Shown: one piece after another, positions 976 to 54,716 of the stretch
How positions within the stretch are numbered: position 1 is the first letter of the stretch
Layout: each line of letters opens with the position of its first letter
The notes under the pieces: generated by a model
Databases searched by the model: none
Seen by the model: only the letters and a program-made list of their open reading frames with translations
What the model was told of the DNA's origin: nothing
Program-made: the position numbers and the translations under genes
NCBI RefSeq assembly: GCF_001428505.1
Contig: NZ_LMHU01000011.1
Location: forward strand, 1 to 64,000
Length of the DNA stretch: 64,000 bases
DNA from: Terrabacter sp. Root181
GTDB taxonomy: Bacteria; Actinomycetota; Actinomycetes; Actinomycetales; Dermatophilaceae
Reading direction: 5' to 3'

Positions 976-1742
976 AGCACCACTGGACGTCTCCTCGAGG
1001 GAGCGGGATCGGCACGGGCTTTCCGGGGCCGGGAAACGGCGGATGAACCAGATGATTCACATCGCCGCGATCAGTCAGATCTGACCCCACACCCGACGGA
1101 TGGGCCTACCACCGGCGCAAGTGTGCTGAAGGCGAGAGACCTCTCGAGGACCTGCGGTGCCTCAAGCGCAGGATTTTCGATGCCCTCCACCGCCAGCCCG
1201 TGGCCGACACGACAGCCCCGATGACGGAGGCAGTGGAGGCCGGACCGGGAGGGCACTGCGGGGTCTCAAGAACTCAGCGCGGTTGACCTTGCCGCCGAGC
1301 CTCGACACTGCGGTTCAGCCAAATCCCGGGCGACCGCACAACCGGCGCTACGCCCGGCACCGACGCCAAGGGGACCGACATCGAGAAGACATCGAAGCGA
1401 CCGCTTGACAACAGAAGGGGCCCGCATGCACGCAATCCTGGGACAGCTCGGGCGGCATGGCGGATGTCCTGTCAGGCCAGATTCGGTTCAAACGTCCCTG
1501 AGAGGATGCGGTCCATGTCAGGTGCGCTCGCCGAGTCGTGCTCCCAATGCCCGCGATAACGGCGACCTCGGCGTCGTCGATTCTCTCCCGCGGTCTACGT
1601 CTGGACCGCAGTTTGCGGCTTCAGAAGGGGCGCGGCACGGCGAACGGCTGCCTTGGACACCTGCCGCCAGGTGACTGCGCCGGCGGAGTTTCCTTGGTAT
1701 AACGGGAAGTACGCGCTATCGCTGCCGCGCAAGGGGGCCCTC
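976..1742. other. gene-poor stretch with transposase relic
   Basis: Between the SLATT-like gene and the SIR2 gene I see no intact gene. The part at 1083-1286 carries an IS110-like C-terminal remnant (listed separately). The rest has open frames on both strands but no recognisable protein. The purine-rich AAGGGGG at about 1731-1738 serves as ribosome binding site for the gene at 1743. Confidence 0.4.
1083..1286 (+). pseudogene. IS110-family transposase C-terminal remnant
   Basis: Frame-by-frame reading gives a 67-codon piece including DGWAYHRRKCAEG and LRCLKRRIFDALHRQ. It resembles the C-terminal end of IS110-type transposases (typical pattern GRAYYxRKxAEGKxxxEALRxLKRRxSDxxYRQ) and continues into the usual low-complexity tail before a TGA. 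Nothing N-terminal to it is recognisable, so it is a decayed fragment. Assignment is from memory of the family pattern only. Confidence 0.4.
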
Positions 1743-4700
1743 ATGGGGAACGATGGAGCTGTACTGAACGACCTGCGCGTGCGTCTGCGCAAGAACCCAG
1801 AAAGTGTAGTATTTCTCGTGGGTGCCGGTGTCTCGATCCAGACATCCAAGCCCAAGAATGGCCCACCACTGCCGACCACGACTTGGCCCGGCCTGTTGGC
1901 CAGTGGAGTCACCTGGGCCCGCGACACACGCTTGGTATCCGATGGGGATGCAGACATCGCGCTGGCAATACTGGGCTCTGGCAAGGCTCCGACTACCAAA
2001 GGGCTTATGCGGGTCGCCGAGGACGTAAGCCAGTGGTTCAGCGGCGCCCCCGACGAGTACGGCGCCTGGCTGGAGGCGAGCGTCGGGCACTTGCCTATCC
2101 GGGACAAGGGGCCGATCCACGCCCTCGATGCGCTGGGAGGCATGCTCGTCACTACAAACTACGACGATTTGATCGAGCGGGTGTCGAGTCGACAGCGTGT
2201 CTTCACCTGGAAACAGGTACCCGATGTCAGGCAGACCTTCCTAGACGGCACTCCGTCGGTGCTGCATCTCCACGGGCATTTCGCGCAGCCGGACACCGTT
2301 GTTCTCGGCCCCAAGAGTTATGACCGCTTGCTTGCAGACAAGTCAGTGCGCCTGCTCCGCAATGCCCTGGCCTACGGCAAGCTGCTCGTCTTCGTCGGCT
2401 TTGGGGCCGGTATATCGGACCCCAATTTTGGTGACCTCCGCCGGTTGCTAACGGTTACGGACGCCGCTCGGGACATTACACACATTCGGCTGACCCTCGC
2501 CGATGACCTGCCAGCGCTTCGGCGCACGCACGCCAAGGACAACATCCATCCGGTGCCCTTTGGAACACGGTACTCAGATCTCGAGGTGTTCCTCAGAGGG
2601 CTCAAGCCCCATCGCAGCCCTGCAAAACGGCGGTGCAGCCCTGACATGCCGCCGGCCCAGCGCCTCGTCGGGACCGGGGGTATCGTGGACGACGTGGTGC
2701 AGCGGCTCCTCACCGGCACGGACATTGTGCTGTTGGGAGCGGTCGGCGGCTCGGGCAAAACGGCTGTTGCTCTCGCGGTGGCCGCGCGCCAAGAGGTCGC
2801 CGAGGCGTTTCCAGACGGGACGCTCTGGGCCTCACTTGGACAAGCGCCGGATCTCGGCGTGATCACCCGCTCGTGGGCTCGCGCGCTCGGCATGCCGGCG
2901 GGCCAGGTCAACGCCATGACGACCGTGGCCGGTGGGGCCATGACGGGCGAGGAGCTATTGCGCAAGTTCCTGCTTGACAAACGATGCCTCATCCTCATTG
3001 ACGACGCCTGGTCCACCGAGGCGGCAAGGGCGCTGCGCGTCGGTGGGGTGCGGTGCGCTCATTTGGCGACGACGCGACGACTTTCAGTGGCGCAGGACTT
3101 GCGGGGTGCCAATGATCCTCCGGCTGTCAACATCGACGCACTGGACACTGCGCGCAGCATCGAGCTGCTGCGTGACCGCGCGCCAACAGCGGTCGGTTTG
3201 CGGGAGAGTGATATTAGAGACCTGGCCGAGGCGGTCTTTGGGCTGCCCGCGTCCCTTGTCGTCCTCGCTCGACTGCTTGAGAACGAAGCGCAGAATGGGA
3301 TCGAAGGACTGGATGCGGAGATCGCGCTCTTGCGCGAAGGGCTCCACTCTGCCCATGCGTACGAACTTCCCCTTGAGGGCTTGAGCGCGGACGACACGCG
3401 CCGCGTCACGTCGTTCAGCGCAATTCTCGATCGAACGACTCAGGCACTGAGCGAACCAGCCCGCAAGGCTGCCCCGGACATCACGGCGCTACCGAAGAAG
3501 GCCGACACGTTTTCTAGTGACCTGGCTCGGGTCGCCGGCGACCTGGACGGTCCGCAGTTCAGCGAGATCCGGGAGTTTGGTCTCGTCGAGGCAACCGGCG
3601 CCCGGTATTGGATGCATCAGGTGCACTGGGACTACCTGCGGTTGCAGCAGCATCCAGCGGCGCGCGTTCGAGTTGCTGAGCATCTGATCCAGCTCATGAA
3701 AGCCGACGTTCGCGGTGCTGGGCGCACCGCATGGCTCGACTCCATCCGTGATGAGATGGGCAGCATTCGGTACTCGCTCGACAGCCTGGTCCAGGACGCC
3801 GACCGGGACCGAGCACTCCGTCTGGCCGGAGGTCTGGGGGACTATCTGTACGAACGCAGCCTTTTTCGGGACGGTATGGAATGCCTCGGATGCCTCGTGT
3901 CGGTGATCGCCCCCGGAGTCCTCGAAGGAGGCGCGGACTGGGTCAGCGAAGGGCCGATGCCCGAACAGGACCTTGCCATGCTCGCCAAGTGTGTCAATGA
4001 TCTCGGCACATGCGCGTACAACCTCGGTGAGACCGGGCTCGCGGAACAGGCTTACACGCGCGGCAAGGAGCTGCGGACGGCGCTGAAGCATCGCGACCTC
4101 AGCGGATCCTTGAACAACGTAGGGCTGATCCACCGGGACCGGGGTGCCGTGGCTAAAGCCAAGCAGCTGTTCGGTCGCGCGCTGAAGATGAACACGAAGT
4201 TGATCGTGGCCGAGCCGGAGAACGATCGCCATCACAAGTGGGCAGGCATCAACCTCGACAACCTTGCAGTGAGCGGCTTCGAGTTCACACCCCTTACTTC
4301 CGATGGCATGCATGAGCGATCACTATTGAAAAGCGCTGGCGAGCATTTCACCAACGTGGGATGGTCATGGGGCCAAGCCATGGTGACCTGCGACCGGGGC
4401 AAGCTGCAGATCTGTCTCGGAAACCTCGACAAAGCTCGTCAGCTTATCCTCGAGAGCCTCCGGATGAGGACCATGATCGGGGATGAACGCGGACAGATCC
4501 TGAGCATGATGGCGCTGGCCCACGTGGAGCTGGTCTCGGAGGACGGTCGAGCGAGTGAGAGCAAGCTGGGGGCCGCCCTTGATGCAGCCCTGAAACTGGG
4601 CGAGGACCGGCTCACCTCCGAGTGCATGATCGCCCTCGCCGCGACCCAGGCGGGCGGCCAGCGCTCCGCCGCGGGCGGATACGCACTGGCATGGCGTTCA

Positions 4701-4883
4701 GAAAGGCGACTCGCCCCAACCCGCCTTGTCGCGTGGACCCAACACGCACAAAAGCCCTCTCGTGGGATCGACGCCGCCGACGTGCAGGGCTCGCAGTCGC
4801 TCCGCACGGCAGCGCGTGCACTGGCCTTGACAGTCCGGGCCGACTGGACCTCCGTGCTCGAAGCAACACTCCGGGCTGCCTGA
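1743..4883 (+). CDS. SIR2-NB-ARC-TPR protein (NLR-like, defence)
   Basis: A 1046-residue three-part protein. Residues 1-285 are a SIR2-like NAD-binding domain: GAGVS at 27-31, TTNYDD at 137-142 and HGH at 177-179, then FVGFGAGISDPNF. Residues about 300-560 are a STAND/NB-ARC NTPase: Walker A GAVGGSGKT 332-340, Walker B LILIDDAW 416-423, sensor-like TTR 443-445. The last about 450 residues are helical TPR-like repeats (LNNVGLIHRDRGAVAKAKQ). The family logic, known from Avs- and SIR2-STAND-type antiphage systems, is ligand sensing by the repeats, NTP-driven oligomerisation and NAD+ depletion by SIR2. The start at 1743 is chosen for its AAGGGGG ribosome binding site; an in-frame ATG at 1653 is less likely. 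It stands alone, as many such one-gene systems do. Antiphage function is inferred. Confidence 0.85.
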   Translation: MGNDGAVLNDLRVRLRKNPESVVFLVGAGVSIQTSKPKNGPPLPTTTWPGLLASGVTWARDTRLVSDGDADIALAILGSGKAPTTKGLMRVAEDVSQWFSGAPDEYGAWLEASVGHLPIRDKGPIHALDALGGMLVTTNYDDLIERVSSRQRVFTWKQVPDVRQTFLDGTPSVLHLHGHFAQPDTVVLGPKSYDRLLADKSVRLLRNALAYGKLLVFVGFGAGISDPNFGDLRRLLTVTDAARDITHIRLTLADDLPALRRTHAKDNIHPVPFGTRYSDLEVFLRGLKPHRSPAKRRCSPDMPPAQRLVGTGGIVDDVVQRLLTGTDIVLLGAVGGSGKTAVALAVAARQEVAEAFPDGTLWASLGQAPDLGVITRSWARALGMPAGQVNAMTTVAGGAMTGEELLRKFLLDKRCLILIDDAWSTEAARALRVGGVRCAHLATTRRLSVAQDLRGANDPPAVNIDALDTARSIELLRDRAPTAVGLRESDIRDLAEAVFGLPASLVVLARLLENEAQNGIEGLDAEIALLREGLHSAHAYELPLEGLSADDTRRVTSFSAILDRTTQALSEPARKAAPDITALPKKADTFSSDLARVAGDLDGPQFSEIREFGLVEATGARYWMHQVHWDYLRLQQHPAARVRVAEHLIQLMKADVRGAGRTAWLDSIRDEMGSIRYSLDSLVQDADRDRALRLAGGLGDYLYERSLFRDGMECLGCLVSVIAPGVLEGGADWVSEGPMPEQDLAMLAKCVNDLGTCAYNLGETGLAEQAYTRGKELRTALKHRDLSGSLNNVGLIHRDRGAVAKAKQLFGRALKMNTKLIVAEPENDRHHKWAGINLDNLAVSGFEFTPLTSDGMHERSLLKSAGEHFTNVGWSWGQAMVTCDRGKLQICLGNLDKARQLILESLRMRTMIGDERGQILSMMALAHVELVSEDGRASESKLGAALDAALKLGEDRLTSECMIALAATQAGGQRSAAGGYALAWRSERRLAPTRLVAWTQHAQKPSRGIDAADVQGSQSLRTAARALALTVRADWTSVLEATLRAA

Positions 4884-12787: not shown

Positions 12788-13203
12788 GGAGCAGGACTGT
12801 GCGGGTGAGTGGGGTTGTCGTCGGCGCGGGCGGCCCGGGCCTGCCTCATGGAGGCGATGATCGCGGCCGTTGCCGTCGTGCGGTCTGAGCGCAGCCACGT
12901 CGGGTGGGCGTCGATGAGGGCGTGCAGCCTCTGGTGGTCGGGACGGCACAGGGGCACCAGGTCCTCGACCAGCTCGATGCCGAGACGTGCGTAGGTGGCG
13001 TGGTGCAGGTGCCCGGCTTTCAGGGTCCAGCGTCGACCGCAGACCAGGCACGATGGCTCCACGCCGGTGGCGGTCAGCCAAGCGGCATACCACTGCTTGC
13101 GCTTGTCGCTCCACACGCGGGAGTTGAGGTACGCGTCGTAGGCGGCTCGGCGGGCGCGCCGGGTCCGCCGGGCGGTGGGGTCAGGGACGGACGATGCTCG
13201 CAT
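12784..13203 (-). CDS. HNH-type endonuclease
   Basis: About 139 residues (ATG 13203; an upstream in-frame ATG at 13254 is less likely). The core is C-x2-C (SCLVCGRRW), then AGHLHHATYARLGIELVEDL, then VPLCRPDHQRLH. This is the zinc-bound HNH/HNHc pattern: paired cysteine knuckles around a GHxHH...DLxxLCxxxHxxxH nuclease motif. HNH enzymes cut DNA; in mobile elements they may act in defence or processing. It overlaps the coupling-protein stop by 23 bases and the downstream gene by 4, so it belongs to the transfer operon. Confidence 0.75.
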   Translation of the reverse strand: MRASSVPDPTARRTRRARRAAYDAYLNSRVWSDKRKQWYAAWLTATGVEPSCLVCGRRWTLKAGHLHHATYARLGIELVEDLVPLCRPDHQRLHALIDAHPTWLRSDRTTATAAIIASMRQARAARADDNPTHPHSPAP

Positions 13204-14938
13204 CTCGAATCCTCTGCTCGAGGTCCTTGCGGGCAGCAGTGAGGCTCTTGGCATCCTTGCGCTTGGTCCACGGGCTCATGGTTAGCGCGATCGGTGGCGC
13301 CGAGCGCATGAGGAGCACAGCGGACCCGAAGGGAAGGGTCCGGAGCTCGGCCGGCGTGAGGATCGGCACTTCGCTCGTGGAGGTCGACGTCGAGCGGCGC
13401 CCGTCATGGCCGGTGCTGCGGCTCGTGACGTCCTTGGGTCGGGTGCCGATGAGCTTGGACAGGTCGTCGAGGTCGCGTGCGTTGGACCCGCCGCCGAGGA
13501 TGAGCTTGACGATGGCGGCGTCCCAGATGGCCGACGCCGCGTGCTCGCCCCACACGGCTCGTGCTTGCGCCAGGGACTGGAGCACGACTGTCGTGGCGAT
13601 GCCGGAGCCGCCACCGTCGGACATGAGCGAGGTGAGCGAGGGGAGTGGGTAGTTCGCGGCCTCGTCGAGGATCATCGACAGGGGAGGGTCGAGGCGTGAG
13701 CCGGGCGAGCCGGCGGCCTTGCGCCGTGCGACCTCGAGGACGTCCTCGAGGAACGCGCCGACCAAGCCGGCGGTGGCGGCGGCGCCGGTGGAGGTGCCGA
13801 GCAGGTAGACGGTGCCGTTGTTGTCGAGGATGTGTGCCGGGTCGAGGTGCTCGCCCTGGGCGGGGGAGACGGCGTCGAGGACGCGAGGGTCGGCGAGTGC
13901 GGCGAAGGCGATGGAGACCATGGCCCAGACGGAGTCGCGCTGTCTGGGGTCGGCGCTGATGATGGAGTCGAGGCCTTGGTGCCACGCCTGTGCCGCCTTT
14001 GGGCTCGTGCTGAGGATCATGACCGCTTCGCGGGCATGGACCGCGGACAGCGACCACCGGTAGAGATCCGCCGCGTCGCACTCGCCCAGCGCAGCGGCGT
14101 GAAGAAGCGCGCGCACGGCCTGCTCGGCAGAGGACTGCCAGAAGTTCGCGTCCGTGGTGCCGGACGCCGCGCCTTTCGTCAGCGCCTTGGCGCGAATCAT
14201 CGCGACGTGCGGGTCCTCACAGCCGCGGATCGGTGACCATCGAGCTGTCGAAGGAACCCCGGGCGCGAGGCCTTGCGGATCAAAGACGGCCACCGGCCCG
14301 GCAGATTGCCGGGCGCGCAGTGTCGCTGTGATGTTGTCGGGACGGGTGCTCGTCGTCACCACCGCCCCAAGTGCGTCCAGGATGGCCGGGATGACGAGGT
14401 GCAGCCCCTTGCCGGAGCGAGGCGGCCCCAAGACGACGGTGGAGTCCTCGACCGTGACAAAGCACTTGATGCCGCTGCTGAGCCCGACCGCATGCGCGAC
14501 GTGATTGATGGATGCCGCGGCGATCGAGGGCCGCAGTGTCTGGATGCGAGCTTTGAGCCGACCTGCTCCCGCGGTACGAGCGATGTCCGAGTGGGTCGCC
14601 ATACCGGTGCGGTGGTGCCACGCCACCCGCTGAGTTCGGGCCCGGCTGGCCCGATGGATGGCGTAGGCCGCGCCTCCAGCCGCCAAACCGAGTGCGAACG
14701 CCAAGCACCAGAACTCAGGCGTGGAACCACCGCTATGGCCCCACGCGGCGCCTGGTTGATCGGGGTGCAGCAGAACAGATATGACTCCACCTGCGGAGAA
14801 CAGGGGAACCGGGCTGCTGTGGATCCACGCTTGCAGGGTGGCGGCCAGCCACAGCAGCCCGCTCATACCAAGAGCCGTCGCCAAGGCGCCGAGCGCAGCG
14901 GAGTCGCGCGCCGGCAAGGGCCGTGATGCGTCGGTCAT
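13181..14938 (-). CDS. type IV coupling protein (VirD4/TraG family)
   Basis: 585 residues. Two N-terminal membrane segments (about 15-37 and 75-95; LGALATALGMSGLLWLAATL, FWCLAFALGLAAGGAAYAIH) anchor a cytoplasmic hexameric ATPase. Walker A is VVLGPPRSGKGLHLVIP at about residue 168, preceding the family-typical TSTRPD. Walker B is LSMILDEAAN near 419, followed by a GGGSGIATTVVLQSLAQ motif. The enzyme recruits the relaxase-DNA complex to the type IV channel. It heads the minus-strand operon that runs down to the HTH gene at 8439. Confidence 0.9.
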   Translation of the reverse strand: MTDASRPLPARDSAALGALATALGMSGLLWLAATLQAWIHSSPVPLFSAGGVISVLLHPDQPGAAWGHSGGSTPEFWCLAFALGLAAGGAAYAIHRASRARTQRVAWHHRTGMATHSDIARTAGAGRLKARIQTLRPSIAAASINHVAHAVGLSSGIKCFVTVEDSTVVLGPPRSGKGLHLVIPAILDALGAVVTTSTRPDNITATLRARQSAGPVAVFDPQGLAPGVPSTARWSPIRGCEDPHVAMIRAKALTKGAASGTTDANFWQSSAEQAVRALLHAAALGECDAADLYRWSLSAVHAREAVMILSTSPKAAQAWHQGLDSIISADPRQRDSVWAMVSIAFAALADPRVLDAVSPAQGEHLDPAHILDNNGTVYLLGTSTGAAATAGLVGAFLEDVLEVARRKAAGSPGSRLDPPLSMILDEAANYPLPSLTSLMSDGGGSGIATTVVLQSLAQARAVWGEHAASAIWDAAIVKLILGGGSNARDLDDLSKLIGTRPKDVTSRSTGHDGRRSTSTSTSEVPILTPAELRTLPFGSAVLLMRSAPPIALTMSPWTKRKDAKSLTAARKDLEQRIRDASIVRP

Positions 14939-15144
14939 GAATCGCGTAGAGGCGGCAGGGGGGCACGATCGAAGGTGCGCCGTCGGCTGACGTAGTCGGC
15001 GAGCCGGTTTGGCGCAGTTCCACGCCTGCTGTCAGCCCGGGCGACTGACACCATCGCTGTCACGGGTAGGACTTGGAAGGGCGGCCTGTTGGCGTCACAC
15101 GAATTGCGGCCGGGCGCCGGGCGGCATGGGGCAGGCTGGATGAC
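14939..15144. promoter_or_regulatory. divergent intergenic region
   Basis: A 206-base spacer separates the divergent coupling-protein and ligase genes, so promoters for both must lie here or just within it. No clear sigma-70 hexamer pair or operator repeat was found by eye. Confidence 0.3.
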
Positions 15145-16098
15145 ATGCCTGTCGTGTCGTTGCGTGCACCGGTCGCGTTGGCCCGCCCCATTGATGACCT
15201 CACACCGCAGGGGGCTCAGAATCTGGTGTGGGAACCGAAGTGGGACGGCTATCGCGCGCTGGTAGGAGCAGGTCGCATCTATAGCCGGAACGGCACCAAC
15301 CTCACGCCCCTGTTCCCGGACCTCGCGCCAGTCCTGGCCGCGCGACTGCCCCAGGACCTGGTCTTGGACGGAGAGGTGATCGCGTGGGACCCGGTTGCCG
15401 GTCGCCTGGACTTCGAGGGGCTCCAGGCTCGGATGACAGCCGGTCGGCGGATCCGCGCCGTCGCCGCCCGTCGGCCGGCGCAGCTGGTTGTCTTCGACGT
15501 CCTCGCTGCCGGCGGAGAGGACCTGCGCGGCCGTCCGTTGCAGGAGCGGCGTGCTGTGCTCGAACATGCGCTAGGCACCATTGCCTCGCCCATCGTGCTG
15601 TGCCAGCAGACAGACGACCTGCTTCTGGCACGTGAATGGTTCGGCACACTGACCGCTGGTGGCGTTGAAGGTCTCGTCATCAAGGACGTCCTCAGCAGCT
15701 ATCCGACCACGGCGGGTCAACGAGTCTGGTGGAAGGTCAAGGCCAGGCGGACGCTTGACATGCTCGCGATCGGGTTCACTGGCGACGCGGCGTCACCCAC
15801 GGCATTGGTACTGGCCTTCCCAGGTGTCGTCGACGACGAGGACCAGCCAGCCACGGCCGGGTCGACGACCACATTGTCCAAAACCGTGGGCAGAGCCCTC
15901 ATGCCCTTGTTGCACCCGACTGGGGAGACGTTTCAGCGCACCTTCGCTTGGGGCTCAGCCGGACCCACGAGGGTGACGATCGTCGAACCATTCGTCGTCG
16001 AGGTAGAAGCAGACGCGTCCGCCGCCGAGGGCGTGCTCCGGCACGCGGTGCGGCTACACCGAGCCAGACCAGACATTGATCCCGCAGAAGCGATGTGA
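15145..16098 (+). CDS. ATP-dependent DNA ligase (LigC-like)
   Basis: 317 residues from ATG 15145. Nucleotidyltransferase motifs appear in order: EPKWDGYR (motif I, adenylated Lys), SRNGTNLT (Ia), LDGEVIAWD (III), GVEGLVIK (IV) and WWKVKARRTLD (V). A C-terminal OB-fold-sized segment (about 205-317) follows. The family seals nicks using ATP; actinobacterial relatives accompany non-homologous end-joining genes. Here there is no Ku or primase-polymerase partner; it is a lone cargo gene between the coupling protein and the RuBisCO-like operon. GC content matches the conjugation genes, unlike the next operon. Confidence 0.85.
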   Translation: MPVVSLRAPVALARPIDDLTPQGAQNLVWEPKWDGYRALVGAGRIYSRNGTNLTPLFPDLAPVLAARLPQDLVLDGEVIAWDPVAGRLDFEGLQARMTAGRRIRAVAARRPAQLVVFDVLAAGGEDLRGRPLQERRAVLEHALGTIASPIVLCQQTDDLLLAREWFGTLTAGGVEGLVIKDVLSSYPTTAGQRVWWKVKARRTLDMLAIGFTGDAASPTALVLAFPGVVDDEDQPATAGSTTTLSKTVGRALMPLLHPTGETFQRTFAWGSAGPTRVTIVEPFVVEVEADASAAEGVLRHAVRLHRARPDIDPAEAM

Positions 16099-16578
16099 CC
16101 GGGGCAAGGCAAACTTCATGAGCCGGCTCCCTGCAGCGCAGCAAATGTTCGCCGTAAATGCGCCATGAAGGGGCGAGCGCAGCCGCCTTCAACGCCGGCA
16201 TGAGCGCATTTAGGCCGTGGCAGCCGATGCGGCATCGGCGACGGCATCCCGGTACTGGGTCTCGTCGAGAGTGACAACCAGAAGGAGCCAGCCCACATAC
16301 GCAGCGAATCACTGGGCAGGATCCGGCCCCGCCTGACGCGCGAGTGTCCTTGGTCTGCATGGAGCACATTCTGTGGAGCCGGGTTGACATAATGCCTAGA
16401 CCGTCCGAAGTCTTCGGGCTCACGATGGCGGGACAAGAAAGAGAGAATTCGTGCGGTCGGGACCCCAGACGATGCAGCCACGCTTGGCGTCGTAGGCGGG
16501 TAGAGCCGCCAAGGGGGGCAATAGAGCTAAAGATCCTGTATAACCGATCCAACTCGTCACAACGGCAGGGGTGTGATC
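16099..16578. promoter_or_regulatory. upstream region of the RuBisCO-like operon
   Basis: No gene is recognisable in these 480 bases; the open frames look like shadows. GC content falls from left to right. TATAAC at 16539-16544 resembles a -10 element 35 bases before the GTG at 16579, but no good -35 hexamer sits at the right distance. AGGGG at 16567-16571 is the probable ribosome binding site for the GTG at 16579. Confidence 0.35.
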
Positions 16579-17748
16579 GTGCAAGCAAAGTACTACGTCG
16601 AGTCCGACCTTGAAGGCGACCAAATAGGACAAAGTATAGCAATTGAGCAGAGTGCAGGAAAGTCACGCAATTGGGATGGGATCTCCAAGTCTAGCCAGCG
16701 CTCCGGGTCAGCTCACGTGACGTCCGTCGTCGAAGTGGAACCCCTACCACACCCACTCCCTGTGTATACGGACCCAGTAGCCCACGGTGCGGTTCGGCGA
16801 GCATATGAGATCCAAGTGCGCTATAACAATTGGATACCCCAGTGTGGTATCGGAAATTTGCTTAACGTGGTTCTTGGTGAGCCCCAACACCTAGCGACGG
16901 TTCGCGCCCTTCGCTTGAAGGAGATCAGGCTCGATGCAGCAGAGATTTCCAGCTTCGGTGGGCCTCGATATGGCAGAAACGTTCTCACTCAGGGGCATGA
17001 TCTCGTCGTCGCTCCAATCAAACCATCAGCTGGGCTCTCGCCAGAGGAAGCGTCCGCGCTGGCTTTTGAAGCGGCCATGGGGGGTGTCGACATCGTTAAG
17101 GATGATGAATTGGCGTTTCCGGGTCTGCGGGGTGCCCCTGAAGAGCGATACCGACAGGTCGCCAGCGCAGTTAGGCGGGCTGAGCAGGAGACGGGAACAC
17201 GCAGAGCGTACTGGGCCAACGTAATTACTAGCCCGGCGAAGGCTCTTAAGGCCGCGGAAATGGCTGTGAACGCTGGCGCCGACGCGCTTCTGCTTGCGCC
17301 AGCCCTGCAGGGCTTGGACGTTTGTGCCGACGTCAGCGCTTCCATCGGCCTGCCGGTGGTGGCACATAATGTCGGCGTGACGTCCATGACGCGCGTAGAC
17401 GGGTTCGGCATCGATTTATCCGTTTGGATGTATCTGCAGCGGTTGGCTGGGGCGGATGCTGTACTTGCGCCCTCCCCTTTTGGAAGCTTCGGTATCTCGC
17501 CTCAGTCGGCGCGTGACGCGATTCGCGCGACCAACGATGAGGTGCCCGGAGTTTCGGCAACGCTATTCAGTCACTCCGGAGGGGTGGGTCCTGAGAATGT
17601 TCGTCGGCTGAAGTCTTTGGCCCCTGAAATTGCCGTCGCGTTCACTGCGGGAAGTGCCATCTTTGATCATCCTTTCGGGCCGCGATCAGGTGCAGAGGCT
17701 CTGGTGCTGGCCGTGAGGGCCCTTGGATCCCAGGGGCCGTCAGCATGA
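16579..17748 (+). CDS. RuBisCO-like protein (RubisCO large-subunit family, form IV type)
   Basis: 389 residues from GTG 16579, with ribosome binding site AGGGG 7 bases upstream; GTG 16573 is too close to it. An N-terminal domain of the RuBisCO type is followed by the TIM-barrel landmarks. IKPSAGLSPEEA corresponds to the KPKLGLS loop. GGVDIVKDDEL retains the carbamylated Lys and the Asp/Glu magnesium ligands. VVAHNVGV stands in place of the HRAMH region, and SHSGGVGPENV is the phosphate-binding SGG. The second Lys of KPKLG is Ser, and no loop-6 Lys is visible, so CO2 fixation is unlikely. Known RuBisCO-like proteins are enolases, isomerases, transcarboxylases or decarboxylases of keto-sugar phosphates or methylthio sugars. 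First gene of a four-gene coupled operon; substrate unknown. Confidence 0.85.
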   Translation: MQAKYYVESDLEGDQIGQSIAIEQSAGKSRNWDGISKSSQRSGSAHVTSVVEVEPLPHPLPVYTDPVAHGAVRRAYEIQVRYNNWIPQCGIGNLLNVVLGEPQHLATVRALRLKEIRLDAAEISSFGGPRYGRNVLTQGHDLVVAPIKPSAGLSPEEASALAFEAAMGGVDIVKDDELAFPGLRGAPEERYRQVASAVRRAEQETGTRRAYWANVITSPAKALKAAEMAVNAGADALLLAPALQGLDVCADVSASIGLPVVAHNVGVTSMTRVDGFGIDLSVWMYLQRLAGADAVLAPSPFGSFGISPQSARDAIRATNDEVPGVSATLFSHSGGVGPENVRRLKSLAPEIAVAFTAGSAIFDHPFGPRSGAEALVLAVRALGSQGPSA

Positions 17749-18413
17749 AAGCGAGACAAGATGGACTCGACTCGGCATGCACAATCTGCCGTGACTTCCA
17801 GGAGCCAAATGCAGTGATACTGCGGCATGCCTCCACCTCCCTTAACGAACGAGGAGAATGGCAAGGCCGCGATACCAACGCTCCTTTGAGCGCCTCTGGA
17901 CGCCACGATGCCGCCGAGGTAGGTCTTGAAATATGTCGAATATACCCGGAGGTAGAATGGACAATTTTGACCTCCCCTTTGCTGCGCGCGCAGCAGACCG
18001 CGTTAGCTTTCTCAAAAGCGGGAGTGAAGTGTCAGGAGTTGCTTGTCTGTGACGAACTGATCGAAGCGGACGTGGGTCGCATGACGGGACGGACTTGGGG
18101 TGAGTTTGCGCGTATGGCTCCGTCTGAATTCGCAGCTTGGAAGCGAGGGCTTACGCCGAGCTTTCGTGAGGGTGAAAATCGGGATCAGTTACTAGAACGT
18201 GCCCGTGACGCCCTCGCGAAGGCAAGAGGGTTTGATCGCGTCATCGTAGTCACTCATCTGATGCTAATGACAGCGGTCAGAGAGATGTTGCCGCTGTCTC
18301 GCGACACACCGATCTCGAATCTAGGTGGATTTATGGGCTGGTACGCGTCAAGCGATAGACCCCGAGAAACCTGGTGCGCCGTTGGCGACGACCATTGCGA
18401 TCCTAGGGGTTGA
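17745..18413 (+). CDS. histidine phosphatase family protein
   Basis: 222 residues. The phosphatase signature is VILRHASTSLNERGEWQGR, where RHA replaces the commoner RHG, with catalytic His at about residue 28. Supporting motifs are LTSPLLRAQQTA, the acid-containing DELIEADVGRMTGRTW, and the second catalytic His in VIVVTHLMLMTAV. The family transfers phosphate through phospho-His; members dephosphorylate small molecules or act as mutases. The start overlaps the RuBisCO-like stop (ATGA), so the two are made in a coupled way, consistent with action on a phosphorylated sugar or nucleotide product. TTA codons occur in it, unlike the GC-rich neighbours. Confidence 0.85.
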   Translation: MKARQDGLDSACTICRDFQEPNAVILRHASTSLNERGEWQGRDTNAPLSASGRHDAAEVGLEICRIYPEVEWTILTSPLLRAQQTALAFSKAGVKCQELLVCDELIEADVGRMTGRTWGEFARMAPSEFAAWKRGLTPSFREGENRDQLLERARDALAKARGFDRVIVVTHLMLMTAVREMLPLSRDTPISNLGGFMGWYASSDRPRETWCAVGDDHCDPRG

Positions 18414-18419
18414 AGTCTT

Positions 18420-19568
18420 ATGGCGAATAATCGACCTGCTGGAGTGCACCGACCGTATACGACACAAGGCAAGCTGCGCATCGCTATTTCGTGTGCGGTG
18501 CTTGCGCTTGGGCTCTTGCTCATCAGTACGCCAGGATGGCTGTTCGCAAATCAGTCCAACCCTGTTTTGACTAACGCAGTTGTTGGTTTAGCCGGTGCGC
18601 TTATTGGCTTCGCCGTAACGAGCTTCGTGAACGAGATCCTCGACCCTACCTACGACGCGGTCATGGAGGCCTTTGACCTGCAGGGAGATGTTCTGAATCC
18701 TCATGGGTTCAGAGCTGCAATCCGTGAGGAAGTTTCGACATCCGTTTCGCGGGTCATTGCTGCGCCGACAGAGTTCGGTCCACGGGCTCAAATGGTCCAG
18801 AAGTTGGCCCTTAGGGACGCGAAGACTCATGCAATCATACAATCGATATCGCTCTCCCAGAAATGGCAGACAGCCCAAACACTGGAGGACCTCTTTCGGC
18901 GCAATCCCGCTTTCTCTTTGAGAATACTCCTCATTCACCCGTACTCCAAGAACTCTCTTGCAAGAGAGACGGACCTTGGATTCGCATCCGGAACAATCAG
19001 ACAATTGGTTCAGGAGAGCCTCATACCGTTAGCCAGTCTACGGAACCAGGAGGCTATCGGTCAGCGCCTGCAAGTGCGTGGCTACTGGTCAATGCCGTAT
19101 TTTGGTATTTCCAGCGTCGATTCCGTGAGATCGCTGATCACGCTTTCGCGTGAGGGTCGCGGCGGTGACCAGAACTACGCCTGCCTGATACACGGATCAA
19201 CCCCGTCCACGTTAGCGATGATCGCTGATCTGGAGCAAGGGTTTGAAGAGCGATGGATGGCATCGCATGACCTGATGGTTCCTCTGGAATTAACCGTCAA
19301 GTCGGTCGCCTCCCAAGTTGCCGGAGACACTGAACTCAAGGTGGCGGTCGAGTCTAAGTCCGACGTGCTGGCCAAGTCCCTCGTGTTCAAGGTAGACAAT
19401 GGGAAGGTGCAAGAAGTCGCGCAATCGGATCCCAGGCGGGTGCTCGTTTCCGTGTTGCCTATCAGTGGAGGCGTGGTCCGGGTCCAAGTCACAGAGGCCC
19501 TTTCGCACGACAAGAATCAGTGGTTGGCGTCCCCGGTCGAATTGTCGATTACTGGTGGTGGCGGGTGA
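18420..19568 (+). CDS. two-helix membrane protein with PLD-like cytoplasmic region
   Basis: 382 residues. Two N-terminal membrane helices lie near residues 20-42 (IAISCAVLALGLLLIS) and 50-72 (VVGLAGALIGFAVTSFV). The region about 110-290 alternates strands and helices: LRILLIHPYSKNSLARETDL, then IPLASL, GYWSMPYFGISSVDSV and a late DLEQGFEERWMASHD. This is the shape of the phospholipase-D-like/DUF5919 fold used by several regulators and effectors, but no HxKx4D motif is visible. The last about 80 residues look beta-rich (VTVK/LKVAVESKSD/VRVQVTEAL). It starts 6 bases after the phosphatase stop. Possible sensor, transducer or effector; fold assignment is a pattern-level inference. Confidence 0.5.
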   Translation: MANNRPAGVHRPYTTQGKLRIAISCAVLALGLLLISTPGWLFANQSNPVLTNAVVGLAGALIGFAVTSFVNEILDPTYDAVMEAFDLQGDVLNPHGFRAAIREEVSTSVSRVIAAPTEFGPRAQMVQKLALRDAKTHAIIQSISLSQKWQTAQTLEDLFRRNPAFSLRILLIHPYSKNSLARETDLGFASGTIRQLVQESLIPLASLRNQEAIGQRLQVRGYWSMPYFGISSVDSVRSLITLSREGRGGDQNYACLIHGSTPSTLAMIADLEQGFEERWMASHDLMVPLELTVKSVASQVAGDTELKVAVESKSDVLAKSLVFKVDNGKVQEVAQSDPRRVLVSVLPISGGVVRVQVTEALSHDKNQWLASPVELSITGGGG

Positions 19569-19987
19569 CAAGGCTGGTTGTGGCATCCGACGCAGTTGGC
19601 GGCGCCATGCTCGATGCGACGCTTGCGCTCCTTCCCGATTCGATTGTTTATGAACGGGCTGCGCCACCTTCTGAGAATTACGCCTGGGTAGCGCGAGAGG
19701 TTTGCCACCTTGTGAAAGAGTCCGAAGGCGTCCGTGGGTTTCTCGTATGCGGAACCGGGATTGGAATGGCGATAACAGCGAACAGGATCTCTGGCGTGCG
19801 CGCTGCGGTCTGTCACGACATTTACTCCGTCGAGCGATCAATTCTATCCAACGACTGCCAGGTTCTGTGCATGGGTGCTCGCGTCATCGCCCCCGAGTCG
19901 GCGGCGCGACTCTTACAGCATTGGATGACTCTCACCTTCCAAGGAGACGGACCATCAGCGTGGAAGGTGGGTCAAATCGACGCATAG
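19565..19987 (+). CDS. RpiB/LacAB-type sugar-phosphate isomerase
   Basis: 140 residues from GTG 19565, overlapping the preceding stop by four bases. Hallmarks of the RpiB/LacA/LacB family are present: GFLVCGTGIGMAITANRISG (catalytic Cys and ligand-binding loop), GVRAAVCHDIYSVE (His) and SNDCQVLCMGARVI. The N-terminus TRLVVASDAVGG matches the usual IxxGxDxxG strand in degenerate form. The family interconverts aldose and ketose phosphates (ribose-5-P, allose-6-P, galactose-6-P, tetrose phosphates). Usual length is 140-160, so it is complete. With the RuBisCO-like protein and phosphatase it suggests processing of an unusual sugar phosphate. Confidence 0.85.
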   Translation: MTRLVVASDAVGGAMLDATLALLPDSIVYERAAPPSENYAWVAREVCHLVKESEGVRGFLVCGTGIGMAITANRISGVRAAVCHDIYSVERSILSNDCQVLCMGARVIAPESAARLLQHWMTLTFQGDGPSAWKVGQIDA

Positions 19988-20590
19988 GCGTCTCCGGGTG
20001 TCCTTAGCCGATCGCTACACATGTGGAGCGAGTCGATCTTGTTGCCGCCTCCGTCGCTACACTCTGCTCAGATCGCAAATGACCAGCTATTTCCGTGGGT
20101 TTGGCGATTGCCACCGTGATCCTCGGCAGCTGCTCGCAGGTTCGGTGGGAGGCAATGGGTCAGCCGAGGGTGGTAAGCAGCGATTGGTGACGGTGGTGCT
20201 GAAGGGCTGCTCAGCGGGCGCGTCTGGCGGGCGCCACGATCGCTCGCCGTCGCGATTCCGTGATTCACCGTGGCCGCTCGAGGGCGGTCGCATTTGAGGA
20301 TACCGATAGGGTCGTGGTCGGTCGCACGATCCGGGCCTCGTCCGCGACCTCGAACGCGAGGATGGCGTCGTCGGCGTGAACGGTGGCGCCCTGCCTAGGC
20401 TGTGAAGCAATGGTGGTGAGCCGCGACCCCGGAGCTGCTGACTTGACTTCAGCGCTTGACGACGCTCGCTTTCGGCGCCACTGCGAGTACTACACGGCCT
20501 GATCAGGCCGGCCTGACAACGGCCTCCAGCAACGTCCGATGCTCGGCAGAACGGTAGGTCATGAACGTCTGCGCTGAGTGCTGATGGGAC
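19988..20590. other. gene-poor spacer with palindrome
   Basis: Six hundred bases separate the RpiB stop from the stop of the convergent VirB4 gene. I see no convincing gene; frames on both strands are shadows or unrecognised remnants. The palindrome at 20496-20509 may form a terminator or be a protein site. Confidence 0.35.
20496..20509. repeat. 14-bp palindrome GGCCTGATCAGGCC
   Basis: A perfect self-complementary 14-mer lies about 80 bases downstream of the VirB4 stop and 510 bases after the RpiB stop. There is no following T-tract on the plus strand. It could form part of a bidirectional terminator or a binding site. Confidence 0.4.
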
Positions 20591-22051
20591 TCATATGGCC
20601 GACCTCTGGAGCTCCATACGCGAGTTGGTGTCGAAGAGCGTTAGCTCGTCGTCCGTTGCCACGTGACGGACGACGAATGCCCTCTGGCCGACGCGCCACA
20701 GTCCCTCGCCGCGTTGCAGATCCGGGAGTTGGGCTCGCTCCGCCGTGGACAGTCCCAGTTCGAGTGCGGTCTGAGGAGCCTCACTGACCTCTTGCTGGTA
20801 GATGACCTTCGTCGAGCAGTCGCCGAGCAGACCTCGAGCCAGCGCACGTGACTCGGAGCCAGCGTTTCCCACGGCGTCGAGGTCCGACAGCCGGTGCACG
20901 ATCAGCAGGTTCGCGATGCCCAGACCGCGCGACAGCTTCCACTGAGACTGCATGCGGGCGAGCAAGGCGGGCTGGCGCATGAGCCGCCAGGCCTCGTCGT
21001 AGATGACCCACCTCTGGCCCCCGTCAGGTGCCGATAGTGCCGCCTCCATCCATGCTGAGGCGCACGTCATCACCATCGCGATGAGCTGATCGGAGCCCTG
21101 AATCTGCGAAAGGTCCAACGAGACCATCGGCAGAGTCGGGTCGAAGGTGAGGGTCGAAGGTCCGTCGAAGAGGCCGCTGAGGTCACCAGCGACCAATCGG
21201 CGCATGGCATGGGCCAGGTCGCGGCCGTCGCGTGCGAGCTCAGCGGCACTCGAGCCGGGAAGTGCAGACTGAGGCTCCAGGAGCAGATCGACGACCATCG
21301 GCAATGTTGGTTCGACCGCCGCCGCGGCAGCGCCGGCCAGCGAAACGTCCAGAGCGGTGTGCTCAACAGACACCAGAGGCCGCCCGAGTGCCGACTGAGC
21401 CAACGAACCGACAAGGGCGCGTCGCCGGTTGGCGACCAGCAACTGCCACTGGGAGTCGGGGAGTGCCGGGTCGCGCGGCCCGGGGTCCAGCGGGTTCAGA
21501 CGGTTGCGTGAGCCGCCGCCGAGTTGGATAGCGGCGCCACCGACAGCCTTGGCGACGACGGACCATTCACCCTTCGGGTCGCCGGGCACGTAGACCCGCC
21601 GCCCGAAGGCGATCGACCGAGTCGCCAACGACTTGGCGAGGCAGGACTTCCCCTTCCCGACGACCCCGGCGAGCAAGCAGTTCGGATTCGTGATGATGCC
21701 TTGGCTATAGAGCACCCAGGGGTCGAAGCAGAAGCCACCTCCTGACCAGGCGTCCTGCCCGACGTAGACGCCTTCGCTCCCAAGACCAGCCTCCGCAAGG
21801 AAGGGGTACGCGCCGGCGACCACGTCGGAGGTGGCGCGGTGTCCCGGCAGCCGAAGCCGGCGATAGGACCGCCCAGCCTCAGGGCCGTTCTCTCCCTCGG
21901 CAGGAAGGAACTGCGGCGAGTCATCGTCACCACTGCGTCTGCCCCGTGCCGCTTCACCCGAGCGAGCAGCCGGTGGCTTCTCATGCCGACCACGTCGACG
22001 CTTGGTGCCCTGTGGCGCGTAGAAGGTCCCTGACGCTCCTGCCGACGACAT
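20591..22051 (-). CDS. VirB4/TraC-type conjugation ATPase
   Basis: 486 residues from ATG 22051, overlapping the upstream stop by one base (TGATG). Walker A is GVVGKGKSCLAKSLA at residues 129-136; VYVPGDPKGEWSVVA follows. Walker B is RWVIYDEAWRLM near the C-terminal half, then NLLIVHRLSDLDAVGN (the conserved loop after Walker B). The family powers assembly of the type IV secretion channel at the inner membrane. The upstream partner (SCO6880-like) supplies the membrane-anchored N-terminal portion that in other systems belongs to VirB3/VirB4. Confidence 0.85.
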   Translation of the reverse strand: MSSAGASGTFYAPQGTKRRRGRHEKPPAARSGEAARGRRSGDDDSPQFLPAEGENGPEAGRSYRRLRLPGHRATSDVVAGAYPFLAEAGLGSEGVYVGQDAWSGGGFCFDPWVLYSQGIITNPNCLLAGVVGKGKSCLAKSLATRSIAFGRRVYVPGDPKGEWSVVAKAVGGAAIQLGGGSRNRLNPLDPGPRDPALPDSQWQLLVANRRRALVGSLAQSALGRPLVSVEHTALDVSLAGAAAAAVEPTLPMVVDLLLEPQSALPGSSAAELARDGRDLAHAMRRLVAGDLSGLFDGPSTLTFDPTLPMVSLDLSQIQGSDQLIAMVMTCASAWMEAALSAPDGGQRWVIYDEAWRLMRQPALLARMQSQWKLSRGLGIANLLIVHRLSDLDAVGNAGSESRALARGLLGDCSTKVIYQQEVSEAPQTALELGLSTAERAQLPDLQRGEGLWRVGQRAFVVRHVATDDELTLFDTNSRMELQRSAI

Positions 22052-23496
22052 CAGCTCACCTTCCGCGCGAGTGGAAGTGAAGCAGACACGAAGGCTCGGG
22101 CCTGCTGCCCATAGAGCCGTCGCGTCTCGCAGCCGCACTGGATGGCGGCGCGCGAGATCTCCGCGACTGACGCTTCGAGTTCATCCCGCGAGGGCGCGGT
22201 GATGGAGATGAGGCCGGTGAGCTTGACGTCCGCGTGGCCGCTGATGAGCGCCCGTTCGCGTTCGAGGACGTCGTCGCGTTCCGCGCCGTCGGAAAGGTCG
22301 GCGATGGCGCCGATCTTGGCCTTCTGCGCCGCCTCCGTGGCGTACTCGACCTTCGCCTTCCTGATGTCGCGCATCGCCGCGTCGGCCGGGATCGGCTGGA
22401 TTGTCATGGAGAGGGTCTTGCGGATGCCCGGTTGGAAGACCAGGGAGTGCAGGAAGTATGGCGGCGCCCCGACGCGCGGCCATTCGCTGATCCAGAGCAC
22501 GGCGGAGTATGCCGTGTCGTGGCGGACGTGGTCCCACTCCTCGTCCATGGCCACGGGGCCAGCGCTCGCCAGCGTCTGAGTCTCGCGGTCGCCAGTCTCG
22601 TGTCCGGGCTCGAAGGCCTCCCGCAGCGTCGCTGCGAGCTCGCTCTCGTTGAACCATGTCGCCAGCGACAAGTCCGCGGCGCGGAGCCCGGCCTCGAGGG
22701 ACGTCATCTCCTGCCGGAGGAACGCGGCCGCTCCGCGGAGTCCTCGCCCGGCCTGCTTGATGTGCGCCCGCGCGCTGCGGAGGTCGAGCGAGAGCGCGAG
22801 GACCGTGCGGTGCGTCGATGCCGCGGGCGCGGCTGTCTTCATGAGCGACTCGTACTGCTGCACGGCCCACTGGCCGGGTTGCTTGACGCCGTTGACCTCC
22901 CACCAACCAGTGATGCCGCGGCCCGCGTCGGGTAGCGACACCTCGAGCGCCTGCAGCCGGCAGCCAGTCCCGGAAGCGGCCAGGCTGGCCAACGCCCGAC
23001 CCCATCCGTGGACGCGCCTCGCCTGCTCGTCGCTCGACAGGAGCACGTATGCCGGGTGGCGCACGAGTGCGACCGCGGTGAGCGTGTGCCCGTGTGGGTC
23101 GTGCAGCATCGCTGCGCCGGACTCCTCGTCGATGAGGAAGCGCAGGGCAGCAGCGTCGCCGGGGAGGGCGAGCGTGCCGCCTGGTCGTGGGGCTGATGGG
23201 CGCGCTCGGAACTTGGTCTGACCGTTCAGCTTCCGCACGGCGTAGTGCCCTGCCGTGGGGAGTGACTCGACGGCGGGGCGCCCATGCCAGCGCACAAAGG
23301 CGAGCGCGATGAGTCCGGCCCAGAGGGGTGCCGTCAGGCCGGCGCCGGTCGAGCTGCCGAGGAAGATCGCGGGCACGAAGACGAGCGCGGCGACGCAGAG
23401 GCAGAGGATGCGTGATGACGAGAGCCCGAGGAGCAGGCCGCGCCGGGGGAGGCGTCCGAAACGGACGGTCATCGGGGTGGTCGTGGCGTCGGTCAT
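22051..23496 (-). CDS. SCO6880-family conjugation membrane protein
   Basis: 481 residues from ATG 23496 with a GAGGAG ribosome binding site about 8 bases upstream. Two membrane segments lie at about residues 20-65 (ILCLCVAALVFVPAIFLG; LTAPLWAGLIALAFVRW). The rest is cytoplasmic, with WGRALASLAASGTGCRLQAL and LVFQPGIRKTLSMTIQPIPA. This is the SCO6880 family of actinobacterial transfer clusters, which pairs with VirB4 (VirB3-like membrane part plus an N-terminal ATPase-associated domain). No Walker A is present. The minus-strand order coupling TrbL-like, this, then VirB4 is the usual one for these clusters. Confidence 0.75.
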   Translation of the reverse strand: MTDATTTPMTVRFGRLPRRGLLLGLSSSRILCLCVAALVFVPAIFLGSSTGAGLTAPLWAGLIALAFVRWHGRPAVESLPTAGHYAVRKLNGQTKFRARPSAPRPGGTLALPGDAAALRFLIDEESGAAMLHDPHGHTLTAVALVRHPAYVLLSSDEQARRVHGWGRALASLAASGTGCRLQALEVSLPDAGRGITGWWEVNGVKQPGQWAVQQYESLMKTAAPAASTHRTVLALSLDLRSARAHIKQAGRGLRGAAAFLRQEMTSLEAGLRAADLSLATWFNESELAATLREAFEPGHETGDRETQTLASAGPVAMDEEWDHVRHDTAYSAVLWISEWPRVGAPPYFLHSLVFQPGIRKTLSMTIQPIPADAAMRDIRKAKVEYATEAAQKAKIGAIADLSDGAERDDVLERERALISGHADVKLTGLISITAPSRDELEASVAEISRAAIQCGCETRRLYGQQARAFVSASLPLARKVS

Positions 23497-38877: not shown

Positions 38878-39989
38878 CGCGGGTTGACCCTCCCTCGGAG
38901 CGAGAGCACCGCGTCGCGGAACCCGCCACGACTTAGCTCGAACATCGCCACCTGGGTGGCGATGTCGGCGGCGGTGGTGCCCCTCCAGCGCTCTTTCGGC
39001 ATAGGGTTGATCCACGCGATCCTGTCGATGCGCTGGCGCAGCCGGGTGAGAGACGAGACGGTCTCGCCGAACCGCTCGAGTGATCGGCCACCGCGCGCCG
39101 CGCCGCCGTCGCTGAAGAAGAGGACCCCGGTGCGGTCGCTGACCCACGGCGCGATCGCTTCGTCGAACGGCACAGCCCACTGACGATGACTGTCCGTGTA
39201 GAGGTGCACGCCGGGGCAGTTGTGGAAGTAGAAGACGCCGGACTGTCCGAACCGTCCGCCGCGGCGGGCGGTCTCGATGAGCCGGTCCGCGATCCCGCGG
39301 AACGGCACCATGGAACCGCCGTCGTCGACCAGCACCAGCAGGCGCGCGAGGTTCACACGGCGCGCGACCTTAACGGGCTCGACGAGCACGCCGGTGTCTC
39401 CGACCAGGCGCACGGTGGCCTCGACGTCCAGCTCGACCATAGGCCCTGAGCGCGCAGCGTGGCGGAAGGAGCGCCAACTCTGCTTCATCTGACGCTTGGT
39501 GACCGGTACGTAGTCGCTGGTCGGTCCCGTGGGCCGCGGTTCCCCCGCGGTCGTCACAGCGGACAGCACCGCGCGTGCCGCCTGCACCTCGTCGTCGATC
39601 GCCGCGGGGATCTCTGCCGCGGTGGCCGGCGCGGACGTGCCTAAATCTTCCAGTCCGGGCAACGAGCGGCGCGTCGACTCGACCGGGGGGGACTGACCCG
39701 CCGACTCACCCGTGTCCGAAGCCGCCGCGTCGGCCGCCGTGCCTGACCCCATCACCCGGTCGAAGTGCAGGTCGAAGACGCGTTGCTCCTCGACGTCCTT
39801 GATCCACAGCGCCGACAGCAGCCGTCGCAGGGCAGCGGCGTCCGGCAGACCGAACCCCGCCTGTAGGGCACGGAGCGCGAGGCGGTACTCGTCGATGCCG
39901 AGCGGGAGCCCAGCATCTCGGAGCGAGAGAAAGACGTCGAGGAGCCACGACGCCCGTGGTCGCGCCGGTGGGGAGAGGGTGATTGTCAT
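38874..39989 (-). CDS. vWA-domain protein of VMAP-type cluster
   Basis: 371 residues. The N-terminus WLLDVFLSLRDAGLPLGIDE matches the helical region of vWA proteins that partner MoxR ATPases, and a Pro/Ala/Thr-rich linker follows. The C-terminal half (about 195-360) is a von Willebrand A-type domain: LLVLVDDGGSMVPFRGIADR carries the metal-ion site in degenerate form (DxGGSM). FYFHNCPGVHLY and VLFFSDGGAARGG supply later strands. It starts inside the MoxR stop (ATGA) and its own stop overlaps the GTG of the caspase-like gene. In known MoxR/vWA pairs the ATPase remodels or activates the vWA partner. Confidence 0.8.
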   Translation of the reverse strand: MTITLSPPARPRASWLLDVFLSLRDAGLPLGIDEYRLALRALQAGFGLPDAAALRRLLSALWIKDVEEQRVFDLHFDRVMGSGTAADAAASDTGESAGQSPPVESTRRSLPGLEDLGTSAPATAAEIPAAIDDEVQAARAVLSAVTTAGEPRPTGPTSDYVPVTKRQMKQSWRSFRHAARSGPMVELDVEATVRLVGDTGVLVEPVKVARRVNLARLLVLVDDGGSMVPFRGIADRLIETARRGGRFGQSGVFYFHNCPGVHLYTDSHRQWAVPFDEAIAPWVSDRTGVLFFSDGGAARGGRSLERFGETVSSLTRLRQRIDRIAWINPMPKERWRGTTAADIATQVAMFELSRGGFRDAVLSLRGRVNPR

Positions 39990-42874: not shown

Positions 42875-42951
42875 TCTCTCGCCGCTCTTGCCAGTCCCGA
42901 ACTCAATGTGCAAACTACTACCACTTGCTCGTTTCCGAAAGTGAGGCTGAG
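42875..42951. promoter_or_regulatory. divergent promoter region of conflict cluster
   Basis: A 77-base spacer separates the divergent caspase (minus) and zinc-ribbon (plus) starts. It includes the A/T-richer stretch CAAACTACTACCAC (42911-42924), and both operons must be initiated here. No operator repeat was evident. Confidence 0.35.
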
Positions 42952-46147: not shown

Positions 46148-46162
46148 CCGGATACACCTAGG

Positions 46163-54237: not shown

Positions 54238-54249
54238 CGAGGCAGCGCA

Positions 54250-54708: not shown

Positions 54709-54716
54709 GGCCGGCC

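Follow-up and report, generated by a model that had tools for sequence, protein, structure and literature searches.

The 64,000-nucleotide stretch of Terrabacter sp. Root181 DNA considered here (contig NZ_LMHU01000011.1, positions 1 to 64,000; hereafter the window) carries a set of conjugation genes and, between two of them, a run of four co-directional genes at 16579-19987. These genes encode a RuBisCO-like protein (RLP), a histidine phosphatase, a membrane protein and an RpiB/LacAB-family isomerase (Table 1). An earlier note on this DNA, made from the letters alone, had described the run and its junctions, and re-reading of the sequence bears it out: all four open reading frames (ORFs) are open on the forward strand with no in-frame stops, the RLP and phosphatase genes overlap in an ATGA at 17745, a 6-base gap precedes the membrane protein gene at 18420, and the membrane protein and RpiB genes overlap in a GTGA at 19565. 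For the RLP, the start at 16579 is probably to be preferred over that at 16573, because an AGGGG at 16567-16571 lies 7 bases upstream of the former and 1 base upstream of the latter. The guanine-plus-cytosine (GC) content of the four genes is 55-59%, compared with 67-72% for the VirD4, ligase, VirB4, relaxase and primase genes. The four genes form an intact, operon-like array that is foreign in composition. The tight overlaps suggest co-translation, and the genes are probably co-transcribed. At the locus, neither an Rfam match nor a match to a sigma-70-type promoter was found; PADLOC gave no match among the four proteins and the adjacent ligase, and none of the four reached an NCBIfam cut-off. 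In its own genome the RLP is single-copy, and one other RpiB is encoded on a different contig.

Table 1. Features of the four-gene array and its surroundings in the window (aa, amino acids; RLP, RuBisCO-like protein)
Feature	Position	Strand	Remarks
RLP (P0001) gene	16579-17748	+	389 aa, GTG start; form IV superfamily
Histidine phosphatase gene, branch 1	17745-18413	+	222 aa
Orphan membrane protein gene	18420-19568	+	382 aa
RpiB/LacAB-family isomerase (P0004) gene	19565-19987	+	140 aa
Cargo segment	16207-20528	no strand	other DNA in its place in a sister element
VirD4/TraG coupling protein	13181-14938	-	TraG-D_C E 1.7e-27
ATP-dependent DNA ligase, left neighbour of cargo	15073-16098	+	PF01068 E 3.9e-30; common to sister G008
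VirB4-like conjugation ATPase, right flank	20591-22138	-	named by eye; without Pfam match

The RLP matches the Pfam family RuBisCO_large (PF00016) at E 2.6e-22, with 79.9 bits against a cut-off of 30.1. In the alignment it keeps K148, K174, D176, E177 and H263 at the RuBisCO columns K175, K201, D203, E204 and H294, and departs from RuBisCO at N123 (E101), R295 (N264), H327 (L296) and K334 (S303). Since the Mg site and the K175 column are kept while N123, R295, H327 and K334, the residues that mark a true RuBisCO of forms I-III, are lost, we read the protein as an RLP that enolises its substrate and does not act as a carboxylase. The family match, the retained Mg site and the partial loss of carboxylase residues place it in form IV of the RuBisCO superfamily.

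Its nearest relative comes from Candidatus Kerfeldbacteria (locus L042), at 36-38% identity, or 36% over residues 81-375 in the scan of genome contigs, for which the best 80 of 82 confirmed loci were used. It is important to note that the contig scans relied on exact 8-residue seeds, so diverged copies can be missed, and did not extend to metagenome contigs. In a ten-row alignment, only these two proteins have Glu at the N123 column and Ser at the K334 column; likewise, the motifs GEPxH and SPxGSF were seen in these two alone when 110 RLPs were compared, and 19 additional relatives from the class of L042 lack them. After thinning of the 110 at 60% identity, a tree of the remaining 45 pairs the two at 95/97. 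The position of the pair, near the OiaX/kinase-linked and photo-type clades, is weakly supported (61/36), the window protein falls outside the kinase-linked clade, and its branch is very long (2.12). By these comparisons the RLP represents a deep new lineage of form IV. At 9.7 kb, with about 1.7 kb upstream, the Kerfeldbacteria locus shares the RLP features and holds no relative of the RpiB, the phosphatase or the membrane protein.

Wider searches returned distant homologues. A two-row profile found 79 matches at E <= 1e-25 in 396 genomes of the phylum. A search of 191 genomes of L042's class gave 25 at E <= 1e-20, L042's own included. Among 396 genomes of the order, 152 gave RLP matches, most of them short and confined to about query residues 203-266; the short ones were set aside since P0001 matches porphobilinogen synthase (ALAD) there too (E 1.3e-7), which was taken as a shared barrel motif. 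Matches in the order were 26-35% identical and not all of full length, with at most four candidates scored per genome. Plasmids yielded 356 records, all below 60% identity, while the viral contigs scanned gave no close relative and phages no match. Neither of two characterised functions can be transferred: as the 3-oxo-isoapionate-4-phosphate decarboxylase OiaX the protein scores 88.8 bits against an NCBIfam cut-off of 700, and as the 2,3-diketo-5-methylthiopentyl-1-phosphate (DK-MTP-1-P) enolase MtnW it scores 124.8 against 409 and 87.9 against 513.6 bits on two NCBIfam models. The closest Protein Data Bank chains by sequence are 1tel and 1ykw (E 2.2e-36), and no function was drawn from them.

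The isomerase P0004 belongs to the LacAB_rpiB family (PF02502, E 3.6e-32, 111.6 bits against a gathering threshold of 24.7). Against the NCBIfam model DerI, a D-erythrulose-4-phosphate isomerase, it gives E 1.1e-32 and 113.2 bits, under the cut-off of 240. A tree of 36 RpiBs, which included 29 other chromosomal ones (eight congeneric, the second RpiB of the same genome left out), joins P0004 at 100/99 to five RpiBs linked to an RLP or to triose-phosphate isomerase (TIM) and to L228, a chromosomal RpiB that groups with that of L032. Identity to P0004 is 41-50% for the five and 43% for L228, compared with 25-40% for the 29. Thus, P0004 is likely of the tetrulose-phosphate (EryI/DerI) type, with the limit that its branch is long (2.21) and that forcing it among the other chromosomal RpiBs is not rejected by the approximately unbiased (AU) test (p 0.096). 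On plasmids 429 RpiB records were found, the best at about 42% identity, and viral contigs gave no match.

The phosphatase is a branch 1 member of the histidine phosphatase superfamily (His_Phos_1, PF00300, E 4.9e-24, 85.5 bits against a gathering threshold of 21.7). It has RHAST at residues 27-31, presumably in the place of the usual RHG motif, and a single distant match on plasmids (33% identity). The membrane protein is far harder to place. Hydropathy gives hydrophobic helices at residues 16-44 and 48-74, in line with the two helices proposed in the earlier note, and no Pfam family scores above its cut-off. Of the phospholipase D (PLD)-like region proposed there, only a hint was found: the match to DUF5919/PLD-like (PF19319) has E 0.047 and 13.9 bits, under the gathering threshold of 23.5. 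A DUF5919 profile built from seven domains ranked the protein first of 10,125 sequences, yet at E 0.19, and its hhalign score against this profile was equalled or exceeded by 1 of 200 shuffled sequences and by 2 of 150 background ORFs. A protein from a genome of the same family (P0007, locus L255) has two hydrophobic helices followed by a DUF5919-like region, the layout suggested for the window protein, and homology between the two is suggestive only. A PLD-like middle domain is kept as a possible lead. The single-sequence AlphaFold2 model has a mean predicted local distance difference test score (pLDDT) of 41.7, with a strand-rich C-terminus at that low confidence.

Searches for relatives of the membrane protein returned little more than the query. 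Genome contigs gave 28 stretches matching its pattern, none of them confirmed; among 98 relatives only the protein itself was recovered; plasmids and viral contigs gave no match; and 396 genomes of the phylum gave itself and five weak partial matches (E 0.002-0.008). Of these five, the two that were inspected, L122 and L123, resemble by eye a mechanosensitive channel and a ROK protein and were rejected. On these comparisons the membrane protein appears to be an orphan.

The pairing of an RLP with an RpiB was found in other genomes. A scan of further RLP/RuBisCO loci, 105 in number and in part with little flanking sequence, detected an RpiB in three: L032 and L070, where the two genes are adjacent, and L205, where the RpiB is partial, on the opposite strand and at the contig end. 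By Pfam, L032 holds a sugar-type ABC transporter, RLP, RpiB, Dak kinase and SIS domain, and L070 a sugar-type ABC transporter, RLP, RpiB, TIM and class II aldolase. Seven plasmid regions were also inspected, three chosen via RpiB matches and four via RLP matches. One of them, pRetNXC12e of Rhizobium etli (L246), typed as conjugative, encodes an annotated oiaX, a four-carbon acid sugar kinase, a TIM and an RpiB two genes from the RLP, followed by a sugar ABC transporter. L247 and L248 have TIM with RpiB and no annotated RLP; L181 and L249-L251 have an RLP and no annotated RpiB. TIM adjoins RpiB in L070, L246, L247 and L248. An RLP and an RpiB thus stand together repeatedly in clusters for sugar catabolism (L032, L070, L246), which supports the earlier idea that the two share sugar-phosphate chemistry. 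Because the RLPs of these three clusters sit on separate branches of the tree, the two genes came together, or stayed together, repeatedly, and a functional link is more likely than a single inheritance.

Compared with the D-apiose/isoapionate cluster of pRetNXC12e, the array is alike in having an RLP and an RpiB in one gene run on a conjugative replicon or element. It differs in that kinase, TIM and sugar ABC transporter are absent from its four genes, to which a phosphatase and a membrane protein are added. In the work of Carter et al. from 2018, OiaX is said to form L-erythrulose 1-phosphate, which TIM-like and RpiB-like enzymes turn into erythrose 4-phosphate. PMC6302742 gives decarboxylation of 3-oxo-isoapionate-4-phosphate as a reaction of an RLP. 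The kinase, TIM and sugar transporter that would mark an apiose/tetrulose cluster are found neither among the four genes nor in the ligase, in a scan that did not extend to the interval's smaller ORFs. The window's phosphatase is of the histidine family, whereas MtnX of methionine salvage is a haloacid dehalogenase (HAD)-type phosphatase, and the window's RLP lies far under both MtnW cut-offs. The likeness to methionine salvage is that an RLP is followed by phosphatase activity, MtnW catalysing enolisation before MtnX acts (PMC6302742). In the Brucella ery region (PMC3522698), the isomerase genes tpiA2 and rpiB stand beside tetrose-pathway genes. The same TIM-RpiB pair is present on the L247 and L248 plasmids, whereas the window's four genes, set against the erythritol genes, include no TIM, kinase or dehydrogenase.

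The suggestion that no described system has this gene set therefore needs to be narrowed, since RLP with RpiB recurs and MtnW and MtnX already provide an RLP step with a phosphatase after it. For the four genes together, no second occurrence was found in the genome, plasmid, viral-contig and sister-element searches. No description of the gene set was found in the open-licence literature searched, and nothing was found there on an RLP in the context of integrative and conjugative elements.

Our preferred, still tentative, reading is that the four genes are a mobile cassette whose products enolise, isomerise and dephosphorylate a C4/C5 sugar phosphate in the cytosol; we put its chances a little short of even. 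The RLP, with a Mg2+-carbamylated lysine, would enolise and perhaps decarboxylate or isomerise a C4/C5 keto-sugar phosphate, and the tetrulose-type RpiB would interconvert the resulting ketose and aldose phosphates. The histidine phosphatase would then strip the phosphate, so that the process runs one way and ends in a free sugar or ketone. The two-helix membrane protein might hold the enzymes at the membrane, sense the product or aid its exit. What we infer here is the substrate, the sequence of reactions and everything said of the membrane protein's role. By Pfam and NCBIfam, the four genes include neither a kinase nor a transporter; the lack of these and of a regulator argues against plain sugar use, and the presence of a phosphatase points to a last step that runs one way. 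The RLPs characterised to date amount to only a handful (PMC10176493). Each RLP reaction found so far has revealed another use of the RuBisCO scaffold, and the isomerase and phosphatase partners narrow the likely substrate to a few C4/C5 sugar phosphates, so the reaction could be tested with a modest panel.

Several points weigh against this reading. The RLP, phosphatase and RpiB all fall under every NCBIfam cut-off, so no substrate is assigned to them, and the TIM of L070, L246, L247 and L248 is absent among the four genes. The very long branches of the RLP and the RpiB may mean changed function. Among the 105 RLP/RuBisCO loci, an RpiB was found in only the three named above, and relatives of the phosphatase and of the membrane protein occur in none, some loci being short-flanked. 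To the membrane protein, moreover, no role is assigned.

It is also conceivable, if unlikely, that the array is a cut-down apiose- or tetritol-type catabolic cluster that draws kinase, TIM and transporter from the host chromosome. The RLP plus RpiB clusters L246, L070 and L032 look catabolic, the RpiB tree placement points the same way, and the L160 cargo at the same site (described below) reads by eye as a sugar set. But kinase, transporter, regulator and TIM are all missing from the four genes, the phosphatase and membrane protein do not fit, and the RLP is neither OiaX by score nor within the kinase-linked clade. The earlier note had reasoned that an ordinary catabolic cluster would be indicated if related RLP loci always carried sugar transporters and kinases and lacked the membrane gene. 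This is borne out in part: L032, L070 and L246, the three RLP plus RpiB clusters whose neighbourhoods are long enough, do carry transporters and lack the membrane gene (and the phosphatase as well), while the window array has neither transporter nor kinase. Given that lack, and an RLP of another lineage, the array is not simply one more of the RLP plus RpiB catabolic clusters. Somewhat less probable still is a biosynthetic cassette whose product, a free rare sugar or keto-sugar, would be used in making a specialised metabolite or a glycan for export, with the membrane protein acting in export. A finishing phosphatase and a membrane protein would suit synthesis better than catabolism, but no glycosyltransferase, nucleotidyltransferase or transporter family is found among the four. 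Genes of the sister stretch L173 were not counted in favour of this reading, as they are situated beyond the cargo interval.

The setting of the array bears on the remaining possibilities. The window also encodes a TrwC relaxase and a DnaG-type primase, and of the 186 genomes of the family, 47, its own included, hold a match to its VirB4-like ATPase at E <= 1e-60. Twenty stretches taken from the best VirB4 matches served as the sister set. In the sister element G008, VirB4 is 95% identical and VirD4 and the ligase are 93% identical (the ligase in L282). Its homology covers window positions 14805-16206 at 91.6% and resumes at 20552, with different DNA between, and homology of G003 begins at 20529. 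The 16207-20528 interval is a cargo site of a conjugative element: as the earlier note had proposed, the array is cargo, with a replaced segment, conserved flanks in G008 and conjugation genes on both sides. No convincing repeats were found at the cargo edges. At E 1e-5 the RLP, phosphatase, membrane protein and RpiB were found in none of the 20 stretches, four of which are short (L165, L166, L167, L172). VirD4 was reached in eight of them (L160, L161, L162, L169, L170, L171, L173, L174), and in the additional stretches of G008 and G004, not of G003. Less than 0.3 kb separates the match to VirD4 from that to VirB4 in L162 and L173. By eye, sister cargo on the VirD4 side of VirB4 includes transporters, metal-type ATPases and sugar genes; L160 has in the same interval what reads as a sugar-uptake and amino-sugar set. 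With cargo so mixed, location alone does not settle function.

A role in defence or signalling, raised in the earlier note, would have the enzymes produce or remove a signal (a phosphorylated sugar or nucleotide) to which the two-helix, PLD-like membrane protein responds. Two-helix effectors occur in known defence systems. Nine hand-picked defence-like sister proteins were scanned with PADLOC (three from L159, one from L167, two from L171, one from L176 and two from L161), seven of them from the VirD4 side of VirB4 and the two of L161 from outside the interval. On the VirD4 side, this identified a patatin CBASS-type effector (L176 5239-6354, minus strand; E 8.4e-105), a SIR2 protein that is LmuA- and ThsA-like (L171 5926-10044, minus strand) and a CAP12-type TIR protein (L167 1560-2396, minus strand); the three L159 proteins and one of L171 gave no match. 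Defence-like genes thus lie beside VirB4 in 3 of 20 sister stretches, and the window itself encodes, at 1653-4883 (plus strand), a SIR2-like, NB-ARC and TPR protein that is a STAND-type defence candidate. However, PADLOC matched none of the four array proteins, and much of the other cargo is, by eye, not defence-like. The RLP, membrane protein and RpiB lack close relatives in viral contigs and the RLP lacks phage matches, and the nearest RLP and RpiB homologues with readable neighbourhoods are metabolic. The sister defence genes show only that the site accepts such cargo. The role lacks direct support, and we consider it improbable. A more specific version, a mobile signal system in which the membrane protein responds to a phosphorylated sugar that RLP and RpiB produce or erase and the phosphatase resets, and thereby shields the element or its host from phages or rival elements, strikes us as more improbable again. 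The least credible explanation is a chance assembly of passenger genes with no joint function: the exact set was found once only, but two of its junctions are stop-start overlaps and the third is a gap of 6 bases, all four genes are low in GC and free of frame lesions, and RLP and RpiB are paired elsewhere.

Some further features of the elements are worth recording. A Gabija-like GajA/GajB pair lies in a sister element at L161 1171-4472 (plus strand), outside the VirD4-VirB4 interval. At the same site as the array, G004 (L159 2575-11386) has three adjacent cargo genes, of which the last codes for a protein of 2059 aa that carries DEAD/Helicase_C domains and several S1 domains. Elsewhere in the window, an IS481-type transposase is encoded at 45129-46451, and phage-like sheath, tube and baseplate-hub genes of a contractile injection system occupy 52228-59969 (plus strand), with a BTAD protein upstream. 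Two large caspase-domain (Peptidase_C14) proteins are encoded near the contractile-tail genes at 36460-39180 and 41813-43756 (both minus strand).

Among the RLP neighbourhoods inspected, a UPF0261 (Tm-1-like) gene directly precedes the RLP at L070 5647-6879, and similar-looking genes were seen by eye near the RLPs of L043 and L045. Locus L079, labelled as a Klebsiella pneumoniae metagenome-assembled genome, has an ORF pattern that looks high-GC and may be a mislabelled or contaminated contig. On a Thiodictyon plasmid (L181 7926-9239), the RLP directly follows a YjbQ gene, near photosynthesis genes.

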